A stretch of DNA of 64,000 nucleotides, from positions 1 through 64,000 of the forward strand of contig JACPXC010000029.1 of assembly GCA_016196755.1 (NCBI GenBank). Direction: 5' to 3'. The DNA is from Elusimicrobiota bacterium (GTDB lineage Bacteria; Elusimicrobiota; Elusimicrobia; UBA1565). Under the pieces are notes generated by a model. The model saw only the letters and a program-made list of their open reading frames with translations. It had not been told where the DNA came from and made no database searches. This document shows, one piece after another, positions 48,106 through 63,844 of this stretch. The position numbers and the translations under genes are program-made. Positions within the stretch are counted from its first letter, which is position 1; every line of letters starts with the position of its first letter.

Positions 48106-51100
48106 TCACGGCGCGCCGCTCTGGTCGAGGCTCTCGGCCAGGAGTACCTGCAGGAGTGCGTCGTGGGCGTCCGTGGCGCGCTCCGACTCGCGGTTGACCG
48201 CCGAGGCCAACAGCGAGAGGAGGAACGGCGCCCGTCCCGCGGCGGCCGGGAGGCCCTCCATGACCGGGCGCGCGGCCGGGTGCTTCACGTCGATGGCCCA
48301 GCGCGTGCCGTTGCGGAACATGAGCCGGCGGCCGTCGCCCTCGAAGAGTTCGAGCTCGCCGGCGGCCGGCAGGATTGCGGGGTCTAGTCCCCGCCGGCCG
48401 CGCAGCTTGGCCAAGAGGCCCTCCAGCGCGTCGAGGAGCGGGTCGCCCGTGGACGCGGGGGCCGGGGCGGCCTGCTCCTCATGGGCCACCAACGGGATGT
48501 TGAGCGCCGCCGAGGCCAAGCGCGGCAGGCGGACGACGGGCAAGCCGGCGTCGGCCGGCTCGAAGGCCGCGCCGGGGGCCTTTGCGTAGCGCACGCAACC
48601 GTCGGTTTGGGCGCGGCCGCGCAGGTCGGCCAGGGAGACCGCGCCTCCGCCCAAGGTGGGGAACAACGGGGCGGCCTCCAGGCGCTGGCGCAGGGGTTCC
48701 CAGGCCTCCTGAGCCTCGCGGCGGGGCGCGGCGAAGAGCAGGAAGTAGGCGCGCAGGCCGTCGGCCGCCGGCCCCTCGGCCAGGCGCGGCCAGTCGTCGA
48801 CCAGGTCGCAGAGGAAGCGCTGGTAGAGGGCCACGGCAGCCTTGGCCAGGGCCGGGTGGATGGCGCCGTCCTTCTCGACCGGGCCCTGCCAGGCCGAGAC
48901 CTCGAGGAGGATGCGGCCGGCCCCGGCCAGCCCCGGGGTGGGCAGGGGGAACTCGAAGAGCTTGCGGCCGCCGACGACCGTGACGCTGACCCCCGGCAGG
49001 GGCTCGGGCGGCAAGCCGATCCAGGCACGCAGGGTCCCCCCCTCCAGCTCGCGGTTGACCAGCATCGGCTCCTCGAAGCCCGAGGCGGCCGCGGCCGGCG
49101 CCGGCGCGGCGTCGGCCGCGCGCCGGGTGGCCGAGGCGCGCGACTTGCGCGGCGAGGCCGCCGGAGCGGGCGCCAGCGTGCGCTGGGCCGCGGGCCAGAG
49201 GGCGTTTAAAAGCTTGACCTCCCGCTCGTCGAGCACGGCGTCGGCGGCGCCGCCCTCGGCGGCGTAGGTGAACGGCCGGCCCGTGCTGAGCCGGGCGTCG
49301 AGCTGGAGCGGGTTCCAGCCCCCGCCGCGGTGGCGGCGCACGAGCGGCATCGCGCAGAGGTGCTCGCGCACGCGGTGCCAGCGCGCCAAAGAGCGCGGGG
49401 CGCCGATCCAGGGAGTGAAGAGCTTGGCGACCGCGGAGAGGACGAAGACCCGCTCGGGGTCCTGGGGGGCGTCGAAGAGGGTGCCGCGCCGGCGCAGGAG
49501 GTCCTCGAGCTTGGCCAGGACGTCGCCCTCGGCCAGCGGCGCCTCGGGGACCTTCTCGGGCCTGCGCCAGGCCGCGCGCAGGTCGGGGCGGCCGGGGACG
49601 CCGGACGCCTCGGCTCCAGGCAGCAGGCGCTTGAGGAACTCCAAGGTGAAGGACTCGTGGCGGAAGCTCAGCGCGGGAGTGGGGAAGCGCGCGCGGCGGC
49701 GCAGAAAGAACAGGGTCTCGCCCCAGGAGAAGCGCGTGAGCAGGCCCTGATAGTCGAGCAGGCCCGCCTCGCAGGGGAAGAGCGGCACGGTGCGCAGCCA
49801 GGTCGGGAGCTTCTCGGGAGCGCCCTTGGCGGCCCACCAGGCCAGGGCGTCGAGCAGATGCGCGCGCAGGGCCGAGGCTCCCGACGAGTCCTCCTCGGGC
49901 GAGAACTCCGCGGCGGCGGCGGCGTAGAGCGAGGGGATGGCATCGAGCACCGCCGATTGGGCGACGGCGACGCGCTGGGGGCTCAGCGGCATGTCGGCGT
50001 CGAGGACGGCGATGAAGCGCAAGTCGGCGGGGGCCGGGGCGCTCTGGTCGGGCGCGCCGTTGATGAACATGTGCAGGCGCGCGGCGTCGGGGCGGTGCAG
50101 GGGCAGGCCGACCTCGCCGCGCCAGGGTTCGGAGAGGGGGCGGCGCACCAGCACCTGGTCGACGCCAAGGCGCTCGAGCGCCACCGCCGAGCCGGTCTCG
50201 AGGCCGGCCAGGCGGCGCGCGCGGTCAAGGGCGGCGTCGGCGTCCTCGGCGGAGACGCCCGGAAAGAGCCGGGTCAGCGACTCGCGCTCGGCGCGGCCGG
50301 AGAGCAGGATGACCGGAAACGCGCCGGGGGCCGAGGGCTCGCCCGAGCGCGCCACGGGAACGTAGCCCAGGGCTCCCGCGGTGCGGAGCAGTTCCTCGTG
50401 GCTGCGCAGCGACAGGTCGGGGGAGACGTAGACCGGGGCCGACAGCGCCGCGCGGGCGGGGTCGTCGGCGGCGCCGCGCGCGGCGCGCGACGCCGCCTCG
50501 CGCAGCCAGCAGACGCGCTTGGCATCGGCCAAGAGGACCTTGGCCAGCTCGCGGTCGGCGCGCGGCGGGTCGGCCAGGAAGCGGCTGAGCGCTCCCAGGA
50601 GGCCCGAGGCCGGCGGCTCGAGCCAGCCGCGCACCGCGTCGGCCCAGAACTTGTAGAGGACGCCGTCGGCCAGCAAGCGCGCCAGCGCCGGGGCGCGCTC
50701 GGCCTGCAGGCGCGCGCATTTGACGGTCATCTTGCGCACCGCGGCCTCGACGGCGGCCAGCGCGCGCTTGTAGCGCTCGTCGCGCACCACGGCGGTCTGC
50801 GAGGCGTTGAGCCGGAAAGCCGGGTCGTCGACCCGGCCGAAGACCCCGGCCCCGGCAAGCTGGAGCGTCACCTCACCGACGCGCACCCCCAGCCGGTAGA
50901 ACTGCAGGCGGCTCAGGGGCTCGATGCGCGTCGGCATGACGACGATGCCGCGCAGGCCCGAGCCGGCCAGCGGCACGCCCTCCTCCACGAGCTCCTCGGG
51001 CAGGGCCGAGGCGAGCCGGTCGTCGTCGAGGAATATCGGCATCGTCGCCATCCCGCAGTTCTCGCGCAGGGCCTCGGCGAAGCCCTTCCCCCAGAGCCCG

Positions 51101-51573
51101 CGGCGGGTGTCGGGGCCGGGGAGGAGCTTGACCGCGGTGTCGAGACCGACGTCCTCGGGGCGAGCCTCGACCTTCTCGTGCTCGGAGGCGCTGACCGTGA
51201 GCTGGGCGCGCGCGGCGCCGGTTCCCGAGCGCACCAGGATGCGCGAGGGCTTCAGGCGCAGGAGGGTCAGGAGGGCCACCGAGAGCTCGCGCGCGCGGCG
51301 GGTCTTGGGCGAGGCCCTCTGGAACAGCGCGTCATAGGGCGAGGCCAGCTCCTCGGCCGAGAGCGGCAGCCCGTCGAAGTAGACGCTGAGCCCGCCGTCG
51401 CGCTCGCGGCGGATGCGGACGCGCGAGGCCTCCGAGGCGGCCGCGCAGCGGACCAGGAGGAGGACGGCGTGCGAGGGGTCGGGCAGGGCGAAGCGCATGA
51501 GCTTCTCGAGCGCCCGCTCGCGGTCGACCTTAAAGACGCCCGAGCCGACCAGCACCTCCCGTTCACCCGCCAT
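48106..51573 (-). CDS. very large degenerate GHKL/Hsp90-like protein (paralogue 2)
   Basis: A 1155-aa cytoplasmic protein. It begins GSGVFKVDRERALEKLMRF, matching paralogue 1 upstream. Residues about 15-130 follow the course of a GHKL ATP-binding domain, but the Asn of the N-box is missing (VRCAAASEASRVRI replaces ELIQNSIDAGSNRI), and DxGxG and GxxGxG have become YFDGLPLSAEEL and RARELSVALLTLL. ATP binding is therefore unlikely. The middle is Ala/Arg/Leu-rich with no known domain. The C-terminus (LLSLLASAVNRESERATDAHDALL) again matches paralogue 1. The start overlaps the previous gene by 11 bp. Probably a structural partner of the Hsp90-like ATPase. Confidence 0.6.
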   Translation of the reverse strand: MAGEREVLVGSGVFKVDRERALEKLMRFALPDPSHAVLLLVRCAAASEASRVRIRRERDGGLSVYFDGLPLSAEELASPYDALFQRASPKTRRARELSVALLTLLRLKPSRILVRSGTGAARAQLTVSASEHEKVEARPEDVGLDTAVKLLPGPDTRRGLWGKGFAEALRENCGMATMPIFLDDDRLASALPEELVEEGVPLAGSGLRGIVVMPTRIEPLSRLQFYRLGVRVGEVTLQLAGAGVFGRVDDPAFRLNASQTAVVRDERYKRALAAVEAAVRKMTVKCARLQAERAPALARLLADGVLYKFWADAVRGWLEPPASGLLGALSRFLADPPRADRELAKVLLADAKRVCWLREAASRAARGAADDPARAALSAPVYVSPDLSLRSHEELLRTAGALGYVPVARSGEPSAPGAFPVILLSGRAERESLTRLFPGVSAEDADAALDRARRLAGLETGSAVALERLGVDQVLVRRPLSEPWRGEVGLPLHRPDAARLHMFINGAPDQSAPAPADLRFIAVLDADMPLSPQRVAVAQSAVLDAIPSLYAAAAAEFSPEEDSSGASALRAHLLDALAWWAAKGAPEKLPTWLRTVPLFPCEAGLLDYQGLLTRFSWGETLFFLRRRARFPTPALSFRHESFTLEFLKRLLPGAEASGVPGRPDLRAAWRRPEKVPEAPLAEGDVLAKLEDLLRRRGTLFDAPQDPERVFVLSAVAKLFTPWIGAPRSLARWHRVREHLCAMPLVRRHRGGGWNPLQLDARLSTGRPFTYAAEGGAADAVLDEREVKLLNALWPAAQRTLAPAPAASPRKSRASATRRAADAAPAPAAAASGFEEPMLVNRELEGGTLRAWIGLPPEPLPGVSVTVVGGRKLFEFPLPTPGLAGAGRILLEVSAWQGPVEKDGAIHPALAKAAVALYQRFLCDLVDDWPRLAEGPAADGLRAYFLLFAAPRREAQEAWEPLRQRLEAAPLFPTLGGGAVSLADLRGRAQTDGCVRYAKAPGAAFEPADAGLPVVRLPRLASAALNIPLVAHEEQAAPAPASTGDPLLDALEGLLAKLRGRRGLDPAILPAAGELELFEGDGRRLMFRNGTRWAIDVKHPAARPVMEGLPAAAGRAPFLLSLLASAVNRESERATDAHDALLQVLLAESLDQSGAP

Positions 51574-53998
51574 AGCGCTCCAGGGTCAGGGCGGCCAAGG
51601 CCTCGATGAAGAGCGCGTCTTGAGTGTCGGTGACTCCCGAGAGCGCGCGGTTGAGCCCGCTGTGGGCCAGCGAGGCCAGATAGGGCACGGAGTCGGCCGG
51701 GGAAAGGTCGACTAAGGGCAGCGCCACGGGATGGGCGGCGTCGAGCTCCCAGCCGCTCTCCGGCATGAAGCGCAGGAACGCCCCCGCCCCGTGCGCCGTC
51801 ACCTTGAGCGATTGCAGGGCGGCGTCGGGGAGCTGGCAGCCCCCGCGGCGCTTGAGCACCGACAGCCAGGAGCGCAGCTCGCCGCCGGGGTCGACCACCA
51901 GCTCCTCGGGCGGCTGATAGGCGGGCTCCAGGCGGGCGGTCTTGGGCGGATGCAGGGCCTCGTCGGGCGCGGGCGGGAGCTCGACGCGCTTGGTCTTGGG
52001 CAGGGCCAGCCCCACATCGGGCTTGGGGGTTGGGGGGACCTCCCCGGCCAGCTCGACGAACTCGGAGTCGCCGAAGAGCAGGCGCACGTGGTCGGGATAG
52101 CCGTCGACGAGCGGCGCCAAGCGCTCGGGATGGATCGACGCGCGCAAGAGAGTCTTCTTGCCCACGGCGGCACGCGCGCGGAGGTCTTCGAGCGAGAGCC
52201 GGCGCCCCTGCCTGTCGAGCAGGAGCGGCAGGCCGGCCAGCCACGGCACGCCCACGGTGTCGAGGCGCTTGTGATCGCAGCTCAGACGCATGAGGTCCAT
52301 GAGGTGCTCGCGGATGACGGCCATGCGCGGGGTATCTTGGTCGGGGACATACTCGCGGGCCAGGAGCTGGTAGAGGGCCGGCGCCGCTCCCAGGAGCGCG
52401 GCCAAGGCCGAGCGGGCGTGGTCCGAGGGGGCGCCCTCGCGGGGCGCCGCGACGAGCTGGGGATGAAACAACGCGGCCTCGATGCGCAGGCCGCGCATCT
52501 CCCAGGCCGAGGCCCCAAGAGGGCCCGGAGAGCCGATCCAGCGCAGGCGTGAGCGGCGGGTATGCGGGGAGATCGACAGCCCGGCCTCGCCGCTGACCGG
52601 GCCGGACATGAAGGGCAGGCGGACCAGGAGGCTCGAGTCGTCGAGCACCGGCCGGGCGGCCGAGTCGAGCGGGGCCATGTCGCGCGCGCGCAGGGTCCGG
52701 ACCCGATCGGGGAAGAAGGCTTCGAGGAAGCGCCGGTCGGCCTCGCGCACCACCCAGGCCGAGGTCAGGGGGCCCGGGGGGCTGGCGTGCCGGTTGTCCA
52801 CCGTCGGCACGTGTCCCAGCCAGCGCGCCTGCGCCAACAGCGGCCGTAGGGCCAGCGGGCGGCCCAGGGCGTCGTAGAGGATCGGCGCCTCGGAGAGCAG
52901 CGCCGGCAGGCCGTCGCCGGCCTTCTCGGCCTCGATGTCGGCCTTGCGGTGCAGGCAGGCTTGGCGCAGGGTGGAGACCAGGACCGACTGCTCGCGCAGG
53001 GCGGCGGCCTTCTCGGAAGCCTCGCCCGGCCTCGGGGCGATCAGCGCCCCCAGCCGCTCGGAGAGGTTGGCGGTCTCCCAGGGCATCCACGAAAGCCTCA
53101 GGCCCTCGTCGGCCAGCGCCTCGGCGCAGGCCCGCGAGAGCTCCCAGGCCCGGGCCGCGGCGCGCTTGAGGAGAGCCTGGGAGTGCTCGACTAAGACGCC
53201 GGAGGCCTGGTGATAGAAGTTGTCCTTGACGACGCCCATCTGGGACAGGGTCTTGCGGAAGCCGTCGTTGCGGACCCAGCCCTCGACCTGGGCTCCCGGC
53301 AGGCGCAGCCATTCCTCGGCCACGATGACGCCGTGGGTGACGAGCTCGACGCGGCTCTGCTCGGGGGCGTAGTCGGGCAGGCGCAGGACGCCCGAGACGC
53401 CGTCCTTGTGGAAGCTCTCGGCCAGGACCGCCGGCGGCTCGGGGCCGAGCTCGAGGCGCGAGCGCTGTATGGTGATCGGGATCGGACAGCGCTTGGCCAA
53501 GCGCACGAGGAAGTCGCGCTCCTTGGCGAAGCTGGTCTTGACCGACACGAACAGCGTCATCGCCGGCGCCTTGGAGTCGTAGCTGGCGGCCGGCTCGATA
53601 TGCTCCTTGGTGATGTCGCTCATGTGGAGGACGTACTGAGCGTCCTCGTGGGTGAAGGTGGCGGTGACGTGCTCGGGCGGCACGCGCAGGGCGGTCAGGA
53701 TGCCGATGGCCAGCTCGCGCTGGCGGGTCTTCGAGCCGTCGACGTCCTCGTCGAAGAGCGGCTTGTAGGGGTCGGCCAGGTCCTCCAGGCTCCAGGGCAG
53801 GCCGTCGAAGGAGAACTCGAGGCCGGCGGGCTGGGGGACGACGCGTATCCACCCGGCCCGGCTGGCCACCGCGGCCTGGACCCAGGGCAGAGGGTACATG
53901 CGCGCGTCCGGGAGCTGGAAGCGCATGAGCTTCTCGAGCGCGCGGCTGCGGTCGACCCGGAAGCTGCCCGAGCCTACCAACTTGCCGCGCGGCTCCAT
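51563..53998 (-). CDS. large degenerate GHKL/Hsp90-like protein (paralogue 1)
   Basis: 811 aa, with ATG overlapping the preceding stop as TGATG. The N-terminus GSGSFRVDRSRALEKLMRF and region to about 130 parallel paralogue 2 and, more remotely, the active Hsp90-like neighbour, but N-box Asn, DxGxG and the Gly lid are missing (FSFDGLPWSLEDL; RQRELAIGILTAL). The centre resembles the second Hsp90 domain only in length. The C-terminus PYLASLAHSGLNRALSGVTD is shared with paralogue 2. Two such relatives following an intact ATPase suggest a heteromeric chaperone-like assembly; this is inference. Confidence 0.6.
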   Translation of the reverse strand: MEPRGKLVGSGSFRVDRSRALEKLMRFQLPDARMYPLPWVQAAVASRAGWIRVVPQPAGLEFSFDGLPWSLEDLADPYKPLFDEDVDGSKTRQRELAIGILTALRVPPEHVTATFTHEDAQYVLHMSDITKEHIEPAASYDSKAPAMTLFVSVKTSFAKERDFLVRLAKRCPIPITIQRSRLELGPEPPAVLAESFHKDGVSGVLRLPDYAPEQSRVELVTHGVIVAEEWLRLPGAQVEGWVRNDGFRKTLSQMGVVKDNFYHQASGVLVEHSQALLKRAAARAWELSRACAEALADEGLRLSWMPWETANLSERLGALIAPRPGEASEKAAALREQSVLVSTLRQACLHRKADIEAEKAGDGLPALLSEAPILYDALGRPLALRPLLAQARWLGHVPTVDNRHASPPGPLTSAWVVREADRRFLEAFFPDRVRTLRARDMAPLDSAARPVLDDSSLLVRLPFMSGPVSGEAGLSISPHTRRSRLRWIGSPGPLGASAWEMRGLRIEAALFHPQLVAAPREGAPSDHARSALAALLGAAPALYQLLAREYVPDQDTPRMAVIREHLMDLMRLSCDHKRLDTVGVPWLAGLPLLLDRQGRRLSLEDLRARAAVGKKTLLRASIHPERLAPLVDGYPDHVRLLFGDSEFVELAGEVPPTPKPDVGLALPKTKRVELPPAPDEALHPPKTARLEPAYQPPEELVVDPGGELRSWLSVLKRRGGCQLPDAALQSLKVTAHGAGAFLRFMPESGWELDAAHPVALPLVDLSPADSVPYLASLAHSGLNRALSGVTDTQDALFIEALAALTLERYGG

Positions 53999-55710
53999 CA
54001 AGCGCCTTTGGCGGCCTCGACGTCGAGGCGGACCGCGCCCTCGAGCAGCCTAGCCTCGGTCTTCTCGGCCAGGTTCGAGAACTCGCTCTCGCGCTCGGAC
54101 GGCACCGTGCCGTCGTGCAGGTGGAGCATCTTGAGGCAGAGAAAGGCGGCCAGGCCCGGACGCTTGGCGTGCAGGCGGGCCAGGGTGCGGAAGGTGGCGT
54201 GGCCGGCGTGAAGCAGGGCCCAGCGCTTGGCGCGGCCGAAGGAGAGCAGGGAGGACACCGGGGCCTCGTCGACGGCCGAGAGCGCGCCGGGGTCCTTCTG
54301 GGTGACGAAGAACTTCTCGCGCACGCAGGAGCCCTCGTAGGCCAGGTCGGCGGCGCCGATGCCGCGGTACTTGGCCCCCGAGCGGGCGTCGAGCGCGCGC
54401 AGGGTCTCGAGGAAGGCCCGCGCGTCGGCCGGCAGGGCGGCGTCGGAGATCGGGGCGGGGCGCATCAAGCTCGCCGAGGCCTTGACCGCCGGGGCCTTGA
54501 TCCAGGCCGCCAGGCAGTCGGTCCAGACCCCGGCCGGCAGGACCAGGATGCCGCGCTTCTCTAGCTCCTCGGTGACGGCGTTGGGGGCGTCGTCGTAGTA
54601 GATGCGGTCGTCGGCCTCGTCGGCCGAGTCCTCGAGCTCGTCGAGGCTGGCCGGCTTGCCGGAGAGGGTGGGGAACACCGGCCAGTCGGAGTGCTTCCAG
54701 CGCGCCAGCATCCCCCCGTAGACGACGCGCAGGAAGGCGGCGCGCTCGCCCCAGCCGGCGGCCCAGCGGTCGCGCTGGGCGGCCTCCTCGGGGGTGCGCG
54801 CGGGACGGGCCGAGGCCGCGGAGAGCTCGGCGGCCAGCTTGGTCAGCTCTTCGAGCAGCCGCTTGGGCAGCTCGGTCTCGACTAAGCGTCCGACGATCTT
54901 CATGAGCTTCGTGTAGTTCTCATCCATCATCACGTTGTCGCGCGTGAGGGTGTGCTCCAGATAGCGCGACTTGGCCTTGAAGGCCACGCCGGGGAAGAGC
55001 GACTCCTGGCCTTCCTTGAGCGTCAGCCCGCGGTTGTAGAAGCCGAAGAACGGCTTCTCCTCGGCGCTGAAGGCCAGCTCGATGACGGTGCCCTCCTCCG
55101 TGTAGTTGAGCGAGGAGCCCTCGAGCCGGAACGGCTCGCTCAGGAGCTCGAACTCGGGGGCGGCAAAAGAGCGGAAGTAGATGCGGCAGTCGGCGTGGCG
55201 GCACCAGTGGCGGATGGTGTCGCGCGCCTCCTTGGCCAGCTTCTCGGCGTCGGGCTTGGATGCCTTCTTTAGGAGCTCGACGAGGGTCCCCTCGCGCATC
55301 TTGGAGAGCTTGTACTTCTCGTAGCGCCGGTAGTCGGGGAAGTCCAGGCGCCAGGACTCGCCGTTCTTGGCCGAAAAGACGCGCACCAGGTCCGGGCGCA
55401 AGGCGAACACCGAGACGAACCCGATGCCGAACTTGCCGATCTTCGTGAAGTCCTCTTCCTTCGTCGAGCGGAAGAGGACCAGCAGGAAGTTGTCGATGAT
55501 GTACTCATCCATGCCCTCGCCGTCGTCCTCGATGTGGATGACGGCCTTCTCGCCGTCGTAGTCCACGGAGACGTCGATGCGGTTGGAGCCGGCGTCGATC
55601 GAGTTCTGGATCAGCTCGCGGAAGAAGTCCAGCGGCCGGTCGAACTGGTCGACTAAGTCCTTGACGATGGAGGGGACGGCGGAGGCCGACTTCGGGGTCT
55701 GGCGGGCCAT
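53998..55710 (-). CDS. Hsp90-like GHKL ATPase
   Basis: 570 aa. The ATG at 55710 is chosen because the longer TTG frame (55755) would start inside the promoter -35 box. The Bergerat fold is intact: N-box FFRELIQNSIDAGSNRI, DDGEGMD, and lid GKFGIGFVSVFAL. The middle domain carries the Hsp90-family stretch SRYLEHTLTRDNVMMDENY. It is shorter than HtpG and its C-terminus differs from the dimerisation domain; LLHAGHATFRTLARLH instead echoes the two downstream paralogues. First gene of a three-gene overlapping operon. An ATP-driven clamp is expected; the client is unknown. Confidence 0.85.
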   Translation of the reverse strand: MARQTPKSASAVPSIVKDLVDQFDRPLDFFRELIQNSIDAGSNRIDVSVDYDGEKAVIHIEDDGEGMDEYIIDNFLLVLFRSTKEEDFTKIGKFGIGFVSVFALRPDLVRVFSAKNGESWRLDFPDYRRYEKYKLSKMREGTLVELLKKASKPDAEKLAKEARDTIRHWCRHADCRIYFRSFAAPEFELLSEPFRLEGSSLNYTEEGTVIELAFSAEEKPFFGFYNRGLTLKEGQESLFPGVAFKAKSRYLEHTLTRDNVMMDENYTKLMKIVGRLVETELPKRLLEELTKLAAELSAASARPARTPEEAAQRDRWAAGWGERAAFLRVVYGGMLARWKHSDWPVFPTLSGKPASLDELEDSADEADDRIYYDDAPNAVTEELEKRGILVLPAGVWTDCLAAWIKAPAVKASASLMRPAPISDAALPADARAFLETLRALDARSGAKYRGIGAADLAYEGSCVREKFFVTQKDPGALSAVDEAPVSSLLSFGRAKRWALLHAGHATFRTLARLHAKRPGLAAFLCLKMLHLHDGTVPSERESEFSNLAEKTEARLLEGAVRLDVEAAKGA

Positions 55711-60210: not shown

Positions 60211-61803
60211 TCAGGCCGGGGGCGCGGCGGGCGTCCCAAAGGCGCCCAGCGCGGCCCGCTGGGCGGAAAGGTGGAGGTGGATTTCCTCAACGCGGCGCTT
60301 GAAGCGCTCCTGGTCGGCGGCGGTCTGGGAGTCCTTCTCGAAGCGCACGTGCTCCTCGATGAGGGTCTTGAAGCGCGCGGCCGGCACCTTGCGCGAGAGT
60401 TCGCCGATCATCTTGCGCTTCTCCTCGAAGGAGAGCGCGAAGTACTCCTCGGGTTCGTCGAAGTCCTCGATCTCGGTGAGGACCCGTCCGGAGATGGCGT
60501 CGGCCGAGCGCCCCGAGAGCCCGGTCGACACGCAGAGCGCGCCGACCTCCAGCCATTCGGCGTCCGTGAGCGGCAGCCAGGGGCCGCGGCCGCGGAGCTT
60601 GATGTCGCGCATGAGCCTCACGAAGTGCTCGGGGGTGGTCGGCCCCAGGACCTTGAGCGGGGTCTGGTTCAAGCGGCTCGTCATCGCCTCGTCCATGTTC
60701 ATGTTGTTGGCGTCGCAGATGAGGAACCAGCGCCCGTTCTTGGGGCCGATCGTGCCGTCGAGGATGCCGAAGAGCGTGGCGAGGTTGGCCTTCTCCTCGT
60801 TGCGGATGTCGGCGTCGCCGCGCGCGGCGAAGGCGGTGTCGATGTCGGGCCAGTAGACCCCGGCCACCCCGGGGGCCTCGAAGACCTCGGTCTTGAATAT
60901 CTCGAGCAGGCGCGAGGCCGAGGCGTTCTGGTAGGAGGAGGCCCAGTCGGTGCGCCGGATGACCCGGGCCTGCGCCGGCAGGCCGGCCTTGGCGCAGATC
61001 CCCAGGAAGTCGTTGAGCAGGGCATGGGCGGTGACGGTCTTGCCGCAGCCCGGCGTGCCCAGCGCGAACATGATCTGGTTGCGGACCTTCTTGGGGTTCT
61101 CGCCGCGGGCCAGGTCGAAGCCCGCCACGTCGCGGACCAGGCGCTTGCCCAGCCGCAGCATCTCCTCGTTGCCCACCACGTCCTCGGTGGAGACCTGGAG
61201 CAGGCCGGTCGGCTCGTCGGAGGCGGCCGGCTGGGCGCGGTAGCCGTGGAGCTTGAGGTCCGGGGTGAGGACGGCGGTGTCCTCCTTCTCCGAGCCCAGG
61301 CGGCGCATGGCGTTGGCCAGCAGGCGGAAGTAGGAGCGCAGGCAGAGCACGGCCTCGGCGTCGCGCGCCGGGCGCTTCTCGGAGAGCGGATGGGCCTTGT
61401 AGAAGCGCAGGAAGGCCGCGGCGTCGCGCAGGACGGCTTCGGCGCAGTCCTCGGGGCGGCGTTTGTCGGTCAGGTCGCGGTAATCCCCCGAGGGCAGGGA
61501 GCCCGAGGGCTCGGCGGCCTTCTGGATCTGCTGGAGCTTGGCCAGGCGGAGGGCGCCGTGCTCGGCCAGGAGGTAGCCCGCGAAGACCCCGCCGGCCGCC
61601 GCCACGCGCGGCAGGCGGCCTGCCGCCAGGGACGTGGCCACGGCGAAGGAGACCTCGCCCAAGGCCTCGAGGTTGAGCGGGGTGGTCCCGAACGCCCCGC
61701 AGTCGACCTCGGCCAGCGCCTCCGGGATTCCCGAGCGGGCGAGGAGGCGCCGGGCCTGGACCAGTTCCTTCTCCACCTCTTGGGGCGAGATCTTGTCGCT
61801 CAT
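60211..61803 (-). CDS. AAA ATPase with degenerate Walker B
   Basis: A 530-aa protein. Residues 1-220 are a helical, Ala/Leu-rich region of unknown type. The AAA domain (about 225-420) has EDVVGNEEMLRLGKRL, Walker A ALGTPGCGKT and sensor-1 FLICDANN, with a possible arginine finger in MTSRLN. The Walker B region reads GVYWPDIDTAF: relative to the usual FIDEID pattern, Asp is replaced by Pro and Glu by Asp, so hydrolysis may be weak. A long charged C-terminal tail follows. The ATG overlaps the upstream stop (ATGA); third gene of a three-gene operon with a TelA-like protein. Confidence 0.75.
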   Translation of the reverse strand: MSDKISPQEVEKELVQARRLLARSGIPEALAEVDCGAFGTTPLNLEALGEVSFAVATSLAAGRLPRVAAAGGVFAGYLLAEHGALRLAKLQQIQKAAEPSGSLPSGDYRDLTDKRRPEDCAEAVLRDAAAFLRFYKAHPLSEKRPARDAEAVLCLRSYFRLLANAMRRLGSEKEDTAVLTPDLKLHGYRAQPAASDEPTGLLQVSTEDVVGNEEMLRLGKRLVRDVAGFDLARGENPKKVRNQIMFALGTPGCGKTVTAHALLNDFLGICAKAGLPAQARVIRRTDWASSYQNASASRLLEIFKTEVFEAPGVAGVYWPDIDTAFAARGDADIRNEEKANLATLFGILDGTIGPKNGRWFLICDANNMNMDEAMTSRLNQTPLKVLGPTTPEHFVRLMRDIKLRGRGPWLPLTDAEWLEVGALCVSTGLSGRSADAISGRVLTEIEDFDEPEEYFALSFEEKRKMIGELSRKVPAARFKTLIEEHVRFEKDSQTAADQERFKRRVEEIHLHLSAQRAALGAFGTPAAPPA

Positions 61804-62783
61804 GCGGTGTACACCACGTTGACGGTCTTGGCCTGGGCCAGCCGCGTCCGCAGAAGCGGCGCGGCCTGGGGCGTGGTGGCGAACTTGCGCTCCTTGTGCA
61901 CGCGGTAGCCCAGGCGCTCGGCCACCTCTTCGACGAGCGGGCGGCTGTCGGCGGAGAGGTAGTCCTTGTACAGGGTCGAGAACGGGTCCATGTCCTGGTC
62001 GGCCTCCATGCCCAGCGAAGCGCGGTCGAGCGGGCAGTGCAGGACGTAGCAGTCGCGCGCGTCGTCGGGGAACCAGCCGTCGGGCGCCGGGCAGATCGGG
62101 CTCCAGAAAGGGCCGAGCCGGCCGCGCACGACCTCCTCGACCTTGAGCCCGGGGTGCTTGCCGAGGAGGAGGAAGGTGATCTCGGAGTCGTCCTGGGCGT
62201 ACTTCTCCATGAGGGCGCGGAAGGCCGCGGTCTGTTCGGTGTAGTCGCCGGAGCGCGAGAGCAGAGAGCCTCCGCCCCAGGACGCGTCGCTCTGCTCGAG
62301 GAGCAGGGTGTAGCGCACCCAGAGGTCCTCGGCGGCGTCGAAGCGGTCGAAGACCACCTCGAAGGAGGCCGCCTTGCGGTCGGGGAACACCCGGCGCAGC
62401 TTGATGTCGAGGCGGTGCAGAGGCGGCAGCTCGACGCGCGTCAGCTCGCGGTAGTAGGCCAGCTTCGCCGCGAAGCGCGGCGTGGCGGCGCGGCCGGCCC
62501 GGCCCGCGGCCTCGCGCAGGAAGTCGGGGGCGTTTGCGCGGTCGGCGTGGACGGCGACGACGTCTTTGAGGCGGGGGAGGCCGCTGGCGCGGTCGAGCAC
62601 CAGGCCGTCGTAGATCCCGCCCCGCAAAGACGGCGCCATCAGGCGCAGGGTGTCGGCCACGCCGAACGGGTCGGGGAAGAACTTGTTGAGGCGCGCGGCC
62701 AGGACGAGGCGCGAGGCGGCGGCGCACCAGCGCTCGAGCGGGTCGCCCGAGGCCAGCATCCAGCGCTCGCGCGTCTGGGACAT
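61800..62783 (-). CDS. conserved-looking protein of unknown function in the AAA/TelA-like operon
   Basis: A 327-aa soluble protein without signal peptide or membrane segment. Notable stretches are LNKFFPDPFGVADTLRLMAP, RFDAAEDLWVRYTLLLEQS and GRLGPFWSPICPAPDGWFPD. No domain or catalytic pattern recognised. Its start overlaps the stop of the TelA-like gene (TGATG) and its stop overlaps the AAA gene start (ATGA), so the three proteins are made together and probably form one complex or pathway. Confidence 0.55.
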   Translation of the reverse strand: MSQTRERWMLASGDPLERWCAAASRLVLAARLNKFFPDPFGVADTLRLMAPSLRGGIYDGLVLDRASGLPRLKDVVAVHADRANAPDFLREAAGRAGRAATPRFAAKLAYYRELTRVELPPLHRLDIKLRRVFPDRKAASFEVVFDRFDAAEDLWVRYTLLLEQSDASWGGGSLLSRSGDYTEQTAAFRALMEKYAQDDSEITFLLLGKHPGLKVEEVVRGRLGPFWSPICPAPDGWFPDDARDCYVLHCPLDRASLGMEADQDMDPFSTLYKDYLSADSRPLVEEVAERLGYRVHKERKFATTPQAAPLLRTRLAQAKTVNVVYTA

Positions 62784-63844
62784 CAGGCCGGCGACGAGCC
62801 GCCGTACTCCTTCTTGGCCAGCTCGATGGTCTCGTTGATGCGCTGTTCCTTGATCTCGCGCTCGGCGGCGAGGTTGGAGGCCACCATATCCTCGGTGGCC
62901 TTGTCGTAGACCTTCATCTCGCTGGTCAGCTTGTCGATGTTCTGGGTGAGGTAGAGCGAGGTCTCGGAAGCCAGGACGGCCAGCTTGTTGACGCTCTTCT
63001 TGAGCGACTCCATCGACTTGTGCATCTCCACCGAGAGCTCGCCGGCCTTCGAGATCGAGGACAGGCCCGCCAGGTTTCCGTGCAGCTCGTTGAGCACCTC
63101 GTTGCCGGCCTCGTAGAGGGTCTGCATGTTGGAGTGGAGGTTGGTCATGATCTCCAGGAAGTTGTTGTTCATGTTGACGATGGCGACCAGGCGCTCCTCG
63201 GCGTTCGAGTAGAGCCTGAGCTTGGCGCCATGCTCCCAGATCAGACGCTTGACCTCGCTGACCTTGGCCAAGAGCTCGCGGGCCTCGAGGCTCTTGGGGT
63301 CGGCGAGGGCGGCCATCTTCTTCTCGAGCTCGCCGCGGTAGGCCTCGAGCTCGAGCACGTAGCGCGCGGCCTTCTCCTCGTTCTGGGCCGCCGCCACCAT
63401 CTTCTTGTTGAGGCGGACGATGTCCTCCTGCAGGTTCTTGATGTCGGTCTGCAGGGTGTCGACGTAGTCGCCGACCTCCTGGACGCGGCGCTGGGCCACC
63501 TCGATCTTCTCGCCGAGCAACTCTTTTAGGTCCCGGCTGGGGGTCAGATCGCGCAGGAGGGGGACCTTATAAAGGAGGCCCTTGAGGTTGGTGCCGATCT
63601 CGTTGAAGGTCAGGACGTTCCCGAGGTACTCCATGACCGATTTCTGCTCGGCGATGTCGACGGTCATCTCGGTGGAGAGCCGTTCATAGGCCCCGGAGAG
63701 TTCCTCGAACTTCTTGAGGTTGAGCGAGTGCTTGGCCTGGTAGTCCCCGAGCATCCCCTCGATGGACTGGCGGGTATAGCCGTCGCCATCGTAGACGACC
63801 TGCTTCGTCATGACGTCCGCGTTGACCTTGGGTTGGTCGGCCAT
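62783..63844 (-). CDS. TelA-like (toxic-anion-resistance family) helical protein, tentative
   Basis: The 353-aa protein is nearly all helix. AGGAG precedes the ATG. The region from about 180, EARELLAKVSEVKRLIWEHG, NMNNNFLEIMTNLHSNMQTL, then GELSVEMHKSMESLKKS, resembles the C-terminal half of TelA/KlaA proteins; length also fits. TelA was named for tellurite resistance but its mechanism is unknown. A generic coiled-coil protein is the alternative. First gene of the operon with an unknown protein and an AAA ATPase. Confidence 0.45.
   Translation of the reverse strand: MADQPKVNADVMTKQVVYDGDGYTRQSIEGMLGDYQAKHSLNLKKFEELSGAYERLSTEMTVDIAEQKSVMEYLGNVLTFNEIGTNLKGLLYKVPLLRDLTPSRDLKELLGEKIEVAQRRVQEVGDYVDTLQTDIKNLQEDIVRLNKKMVAAAQNEEKAARYVLELEAYRGELEKKMAALADPKSLEARELLAKVSEVKRLIWEHGAKLRLYSNAEERLVAIVNMNNNFLEIMTNLHSNMQTLYEAGNEVLNELHGNLAGLSSISKAGELSVEMHKSMESLKKSVNKLAVLASETSLYLTQNIDKLTSEMKVYDKATEDMVASNLAAEREIKEQRINETIELAKKEYGGSSPA

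Follow-up and report, generated by a model that had tools for sequence, protein, structure and literature searches.

An Hsp90-like ATPase and its ATP-site-deficient paralogues in an Elusimicrobia gene set that resembles a protein-remodelling machine

The stretch of DNA analysed here, "the window" in what follows, comprises 64,000 nucleotides of an Elusimicrobiota bacterium (positions 1 to 64,000 of contig JACPXC010000029.1, assembly GCA_016196755.1). Its genome, G000, is that of a high-G+C Elusimicrobia of 4.59 Mb in 67 contigs, the nearest named relative found being Elusimicrobia bacterium NC_groundwater_1680. Three overlapping open reading frames (ORFs) in the window encode an Hsp90-like ATPase with an intact ATP site and two larger proteins that are predicted to share its fold and have lost its ATP-site residues; we call the N-terminal part of the latter the "dead" module. 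With three further genes upstream, they form a gene set that looks like an as yet undescribed protein-remodelling machine. The three ORFs are as follows:

53998-55710, minus strand: ORF1, active GHKL/Hsp90-like ATPase, 570 amino acids
51563-53998, minus strand: ORF2, putative pseudo-Hsp90 partner, 811 amino acids counted from the ATG in TGATG
48106-51573, minus strand: ORF3, putative second pseudo-Hsp90 partner, 1155 amino acids

TGATG contains both the stop of ORF1 and the start of ORF2, and the overlap between ORF2 and ORF3 comes to 11 nucleotides; both junctions were read in the sequence. Since the three genes overlap head to tail, they are probably translated together. Their arrangement and the sizes of the two large proteins are those given in a preliminary description of the locus, which had recognized an intact GHKL/Hsp90-like ATPase and two giant paralogues with defective ATP sites.

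ORF1 consists of an N domain with the ExxxN, DxGxG and glycine-lid motifs, an Hsp90-type middle domain and a further C-terminal part. Its best Pfam match is HATPase_c_3 (4.7e-15), behind which sacsin, MutL and Hsp90 models are ranked, including SACS (1.5e-9; 38.5 bits against a cut-off of 32.8, aligned over short stretches only); the NCBIfam model of the sacsin N-terminal domain stays just under its cut-off (5.5e-13; 49.2 against 50), and sacsin chains in the PDB are matched as well. The residues E32, N36, D62, G64, G66, G92, G95 and G97 are unchanged in all 13 ORF1-type proteins, as is R257, which lies within a TRD motif at the position of the arginine in the NVSRE motif of Hsp90. The NVSRE arginine is the catalytic arginine of the Hsp90 middle domain, and R257 would likewise take part in ATP hydrolysis. 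ORF1 is clearly predicted to be a GHKL/Hsp90-like ATPase, intact as the preliminary description had it; its Hsp90-type ATP site is complete and extends to the arginine of the middle domain. The canonical Hsp90/HtpG model (PF00183) matches nothing in G000 at E ≤ 0.01, and canonical HtpG is missing from most of the relatives tested.

The two large proteins have no Pfam match at E ≤ 1 and none in NCBIfam or PADLOC. ORF2 is laid out as a dead N-terminal plus middle (N+M) module of about residues 1-300, PLF..G..SL segments and a C-terminal NR..TD..DA domain; its residues 5-596 align with ORF3 (E 7.5e-41), and the last ~140 residues align separately. The start motif GSGxFxVDRxRALEKLMRF and the NR..TD..DA domain, noted before as common to both large proteins, are found throughout the dead-module family. 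When a profile of 33 dead modules was compared with a profile of the 13 ORF1-type proteins in hhalign, the two matched over 246 columns with a probability of 97% (E 2.8e-11, score 92), against scores of 13-20 for 20 column-shuffled profiles, 16.6 for the reversed profile and 16.7 for the unrelated family of the protein C5 (see below). Run against the whole window genome, the dead-module profile finds the 8 dead copies and then ORF1 alone (E 9.4e-8). Profile matches to the middle domains of two Hsp90s, GRP94 and Hsc82, stay below significance (best E 0.035).

Structure prediction points the same way. AlphaFold models, both built from shallow alignments, were compared with known structures in Foldseek: for residues 1-310 of ORF3 (predicted local distance difference test, pLDDT, 63; predicted template modelling score 0.64), the top 50 matches are the N and middle domains of Hsp90s (TRAP1, GRP94, HSP90) and two MutL, with a best E of 1.4e-12, for TRAP1, and template modelling scores of up to 0.69, while the 50 matches listed for the ORF2 model are Hsp90s except for two GyrB. 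ORF2 and ORF3 are accordingly predicted to carry an Hsp90-like N+M fold like that of ORF1, and their homology to it is well supported. The earlier suggestion that the N-termini of the large proteins follow the same course as ORF1 is upheld by the profile match, the Foldseek matches and the motif alignment, and the structure prediction proposed there as a check for a GHKL-like fold has returned Hsp90 matches for both proteins.

What distinguishes the dead modules is seen when 32 of them are aligned position by position with the 13 ORF1-type ATPases; in the ORF2-family alignment a few residues of short rows are misplaced. E32 is replaced mostly by P or L, N36 mostly by A or C and G66 mostly by P, while D62 has become F in 31/32, G95 has become A in 30/32 and R257 has become Q or L in 31/32. 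G64 is retained in all 32, and an aspartate at position 63 is found in 29. The loss of ATP-binding and catalytic residues in the dead modules is well supported by these alignments, and it goes further than the N-box Asn, DxGxG and glycine lid named in the preliminary description, extending to the middle-domain arginine. The loss is uniform and the replacing residues are themselves conserved, which suggests that the site has come under constraint for a new role, and not that it has decayed.

The dead modules make up a large family for which Pfam, NCBIfam and PADLOC have no model. The window genome has eight copies, of which two belong to the operon and six stand alone, so that the large proteins, described earlier as parts of an operon trio, belong to a multi-copy family found mostly outside the operon. 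Dead modules occur in 13 of the 147 genomes of our class-level sample, and a profile search of 295 genomes of the phylum also finds them in 13, two of which come from a further family. A contig scan with ORF2 peptide patterns returned one congeneric genome; the patterns being exact, this has little bearing on the wider distribution. Some stand-alone copies in relatives have two to four hydrophobic segments resembling membrane helices, some are fused to a ~220-residue N-terminal domain with no Pfam match, and in G070 the NR..TD..DA domain is fused to the ATPase.

Several loci are worth recording individually. The NR..TD..DA domain is encoded alone, as ~107 amino acids, at L017 6017-6340 (G000:C14). 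At L115 1-6451 (G100:C161), stand-alone dead modules follow one another in a tandem array, most of them with N-terminal segments predicted to be membrane helices, and the ~220-residue N-terminal domain is carried at L062, L065, L079, L080, L085, L108, L139 and L144. The last of these, an IMG/VR entry, was the one contig found in a scan of viral contigs; its N-terminal domain recurs unchanged in the Elusimicrobia genome G080, and we rejected it as a viral gene, regarding it as a piece of Elusimicrobia chromosome with a serine recombinase. At the start of another contig (L049 1-3011, G096:C117), an ATPase fragment and a dead-module fragment, due either to decay or to an assembly artefact, adjoin two intact dead-module genes.

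At all ATPase loci where the contig continues downstream, a dead-module gene lies alongside, convergent in G070 and elsewhere downstream on the same strand. The trio of the preliminary description is kept together in part: the ATPase plus one large partner is conserved, and the strict trio occurs only within the genus and in one other genome. Its coordinates, 48106-55710, are also too narrow for the system, as they leave out three related genes at 60211-63844, which overlap one another on the same strand ~4.5 kb upstream of ORF1 and belong to a unit larger than the operon described there. The further features of the window are:

62783-63844, minus strand: C3, predicted coiled-coil protein, 353 amino acids
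61800-62783, minus strand: C5, conserved protein overlapping both C4 and C3, 327 amino acids
60211-61803, minus strand: C4, CDC48-like AAA+ ATPase (Pfam AAA) at a conserved position, 530 amino acids
55793-57513, minus strand: two genes (200 and 342 amino acids) separating ORF1-3 from C3-C5-C4
47016-48041, minus strand: Ser/Thr protein kinase (Pkinase, E 1.1e-47) with an N-terminal hydrophobic segment

The order C3-C5-C4-ATPase, with the genes directly adjoining, is found in G024, G098, G104, G080, G109, G096 and G264, the C4 frame being interrupted in G098; in G310 the contig begins inside C5 and continues in the same order. The two separating genes, which have no Pfam family above cut-off, do not recur in the neighbourhood comparison and lie outside the conserved unit. 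Within the class sample, the occurrences are nested: dead modules in 13 genomes, C3 in 12 of these and in none of the remainder, and C4 in 11. The ATPase is found in the same 12 genomes as C3, in a search that covered 14 genomes of the class sample and a phylum sample of 248 rather than all 147. In the genomes compared, the ATPase is always accompanied by one or more dead paralogues and in most cases by C3, C5 and C4 as well.

C3 shows the highest conservation within the set (67-89% identity); a relationship to TelA was considered and rejected for want of Pfam support. C5 homologues at the same position are 48-60% identical, and C5 has no relative in Pfam, NCBIfam, PADLOC or the PDB. C4 matches Pfam AAA (3.8e-7) and NCBIfam CDC48 (0.0011). 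Its Walker A motif is intact (GTPGCGKT) and its Walker B motif is altered, reading GVYWPDIDTAF in the window and GVYW[P/A]DIDTAF across the readable members, the usual aspartate apparently being replaced by proline or alanine in a comparison with p97 made by eye.

We believe there to be an even chance that these genes encode an Hsp90-type remodelling machine in which one ATP-burning subunit works with inactive paralogous partners. A heteromer of ORF1, ORF2 and ORF3 is plausible, and the interpretation offered in the preliminary description is, overall, partly supported. In Hsp90, two N domains dimerise in the presence of ATP and the clamp closes. ORF1 and a dead paralogue could pair through an Hsp90-type N-terminal dimer interface, giving an asymmetric clamp of which only the ORF1 half would fire, the dead half remaining passive, and the dead subunits would serve as adaptors setting place and client. 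More speculatively, the AAA+ protein C4 and the coiled-coil protein C3 may act in the same process of assembly or disassembly. One active gene lineage beside many dead ones, some of them membrane-bearing, fits interchangeable adaptors. A broader scheme, in which a single active Hsp90-like subunit serves ATP-dead adaptors, soluble and membrane-bound, encoded across the genome, together with the AAA+ protein and a coiled-coil scaffold, is possible, and we advance it tentatively.

Several observations weigh against such a machine. Of the two models, that of ORF3 is of moderate quality and that of ORF2 is poor as a whole (pLDDT 46). Many dead modules are encoded at a distance from every ATPase gene. 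In G123, a genome that is 78% complete, dead modules are present, and no ORF1-type ATPase, C3 or C4 could be detected. ORF1 does not adjoin C3, C5 or C4 in the window's own genus. Lastly, conservation within one bacterial class may come partly from common descent; the patchy occurrence within family f2, combined with the conserved order, favours a functional unit.

Among known systems, the Hsp90 family itself (TRAP1, GRP94, HtpG) has the N+M fold that is predicted for the dead proteins, and ORF1 keeps the N-box, DxGxG and lid, together with a TRD motif at the NVSRE arginine position; the differences are that the C-terminal parts are unrelated and that the inactive subunits here come from separate overlapping genes. 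Sacsin, a giant protein, combines three Hsp90-like modules in one chain with ubiquitin-like, DnaJ and HEPN domains (PMC3710099). Sacsin families rank among the top matches for ORF1, whereas the modules here lie in separate genes with an AAA+ partner. TOPOVIBL is a degenerate GHKL partner of an active enzyme, and resembles the dead proteins as a GHKL-fold subunit that stays in its complex without ATP-site residues; in contrast, no topoisomerase or Spo11-type partner is seen here, and the fold is nearest to Hsp90, not Top6B. CDC48/p97-type proteins are nearest to C4 within the AAA family, but C4 has a single, weakly matched AAA domain, and it departs from them in its N-terminal half and in its altered Walker B. 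Among the titles and abstracts listed for bacterial sacsin and GHKL proteins, degenerate GHKL pairs, and Elusimicrobia with Hsp90 or AAA+ proteins, none describes such a system. Textbook Hsp90 is a symmetric dimer, and the behaviour of dead partners is usually studied with engineered heterodimers. Here nature has apparently given each role, active and inactive, its own genes and multiplied those for the inactive one, in bacteria that, among the genomes tested, mostly do without ordinary HtpG. Beyond this, the analysis delimits a large protein family as well as a conserved unit of several genes.

The resemblance to sacsin suggests another explanation, namely that these proteins are bacterial counterparts of sacsin, in whose repeats Hsp90-like N domains are joined with long segments in between, and that they simply hold clients or fold them, with no need for a heteromer of active and inactive subunits. 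The sacsin matches of ORF1 in Pfam, NCBIfam and the PDB are what such a chaperone would lead one to expect, as are the PLF..G..SL segments in ORF1 and both large proteins; we nevertheless consider it unlikely, as ORF2 and ORF3 have no detectable sacsin-family match in Pfam or NCBIfam, ORF1-3 have no HEPN, DnaJ or ubiquitin-like Pfam match, and neither the separate, strictly linked gene pair nor the AAA+ neighbour is known from sacsin. Far more improbable, in our view, is a role in defence against phages, in a system of the Hsp90-like (MzaB/TmtA) kind. The ORF1 N domain does match the PADLOC TmtA models, and MzaB weakly, and the kinase matches PD-T4-6 models, but these matches are partial and mainly to the general GHKL or general kinase domain; in PADLOC, ORF2, ORF3 and C5 have no match and C3 and C4 only weak ones. 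Furthermore, no relatives of ORF2 were found in the plasmid and phage collections and none of C5 in the plasmid collection, and the high conservation, as in C3, and the presence in 7 of 8 sampled genomes of the family suggest a role in the core of the lineage.

The kinase genes raise the question of a signalling module, with the dead modules as receptors for ligands or proteins, ORF1 as a regulatory ATPase and the neighbouring kinases or pseudokinases and beta-propellers as output. Kinase-like genes lie directly beside dead-module genes at about 11 of ~60 loci, several of them without catalytic motifs and several fused to beta-propellers; the membrane helices of relatives' stand-alone copies would suit receptors, and in the window a kinase follows ORF3. 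This kinase, noted in the preliminary description as a membrane Ser/Thr kinase, is real, with HRDLKPAN and DFG motifs besides its hydrophobic segment, but it is no fixed member of the set: the adjacency recurs in G078 and is conserved only in the genus, and outside the genus and f15 the core operon is kinase-free. Each genome has 11-42 kinases, and the 2% chance rate of kinase adjacency is an estimate; as some of the 11 loci are orthologous, the independent cases number only about five. The association of kinases with dead modules is suggestive only, and we hold the signalling module to be improbable.

Degenerate kinase-beta-propeller fusions, with WD40 or Reg_prop propellers, stand beside dead modules at L011 4170-6665, L079 10412-12322 and L134 4973-6847.

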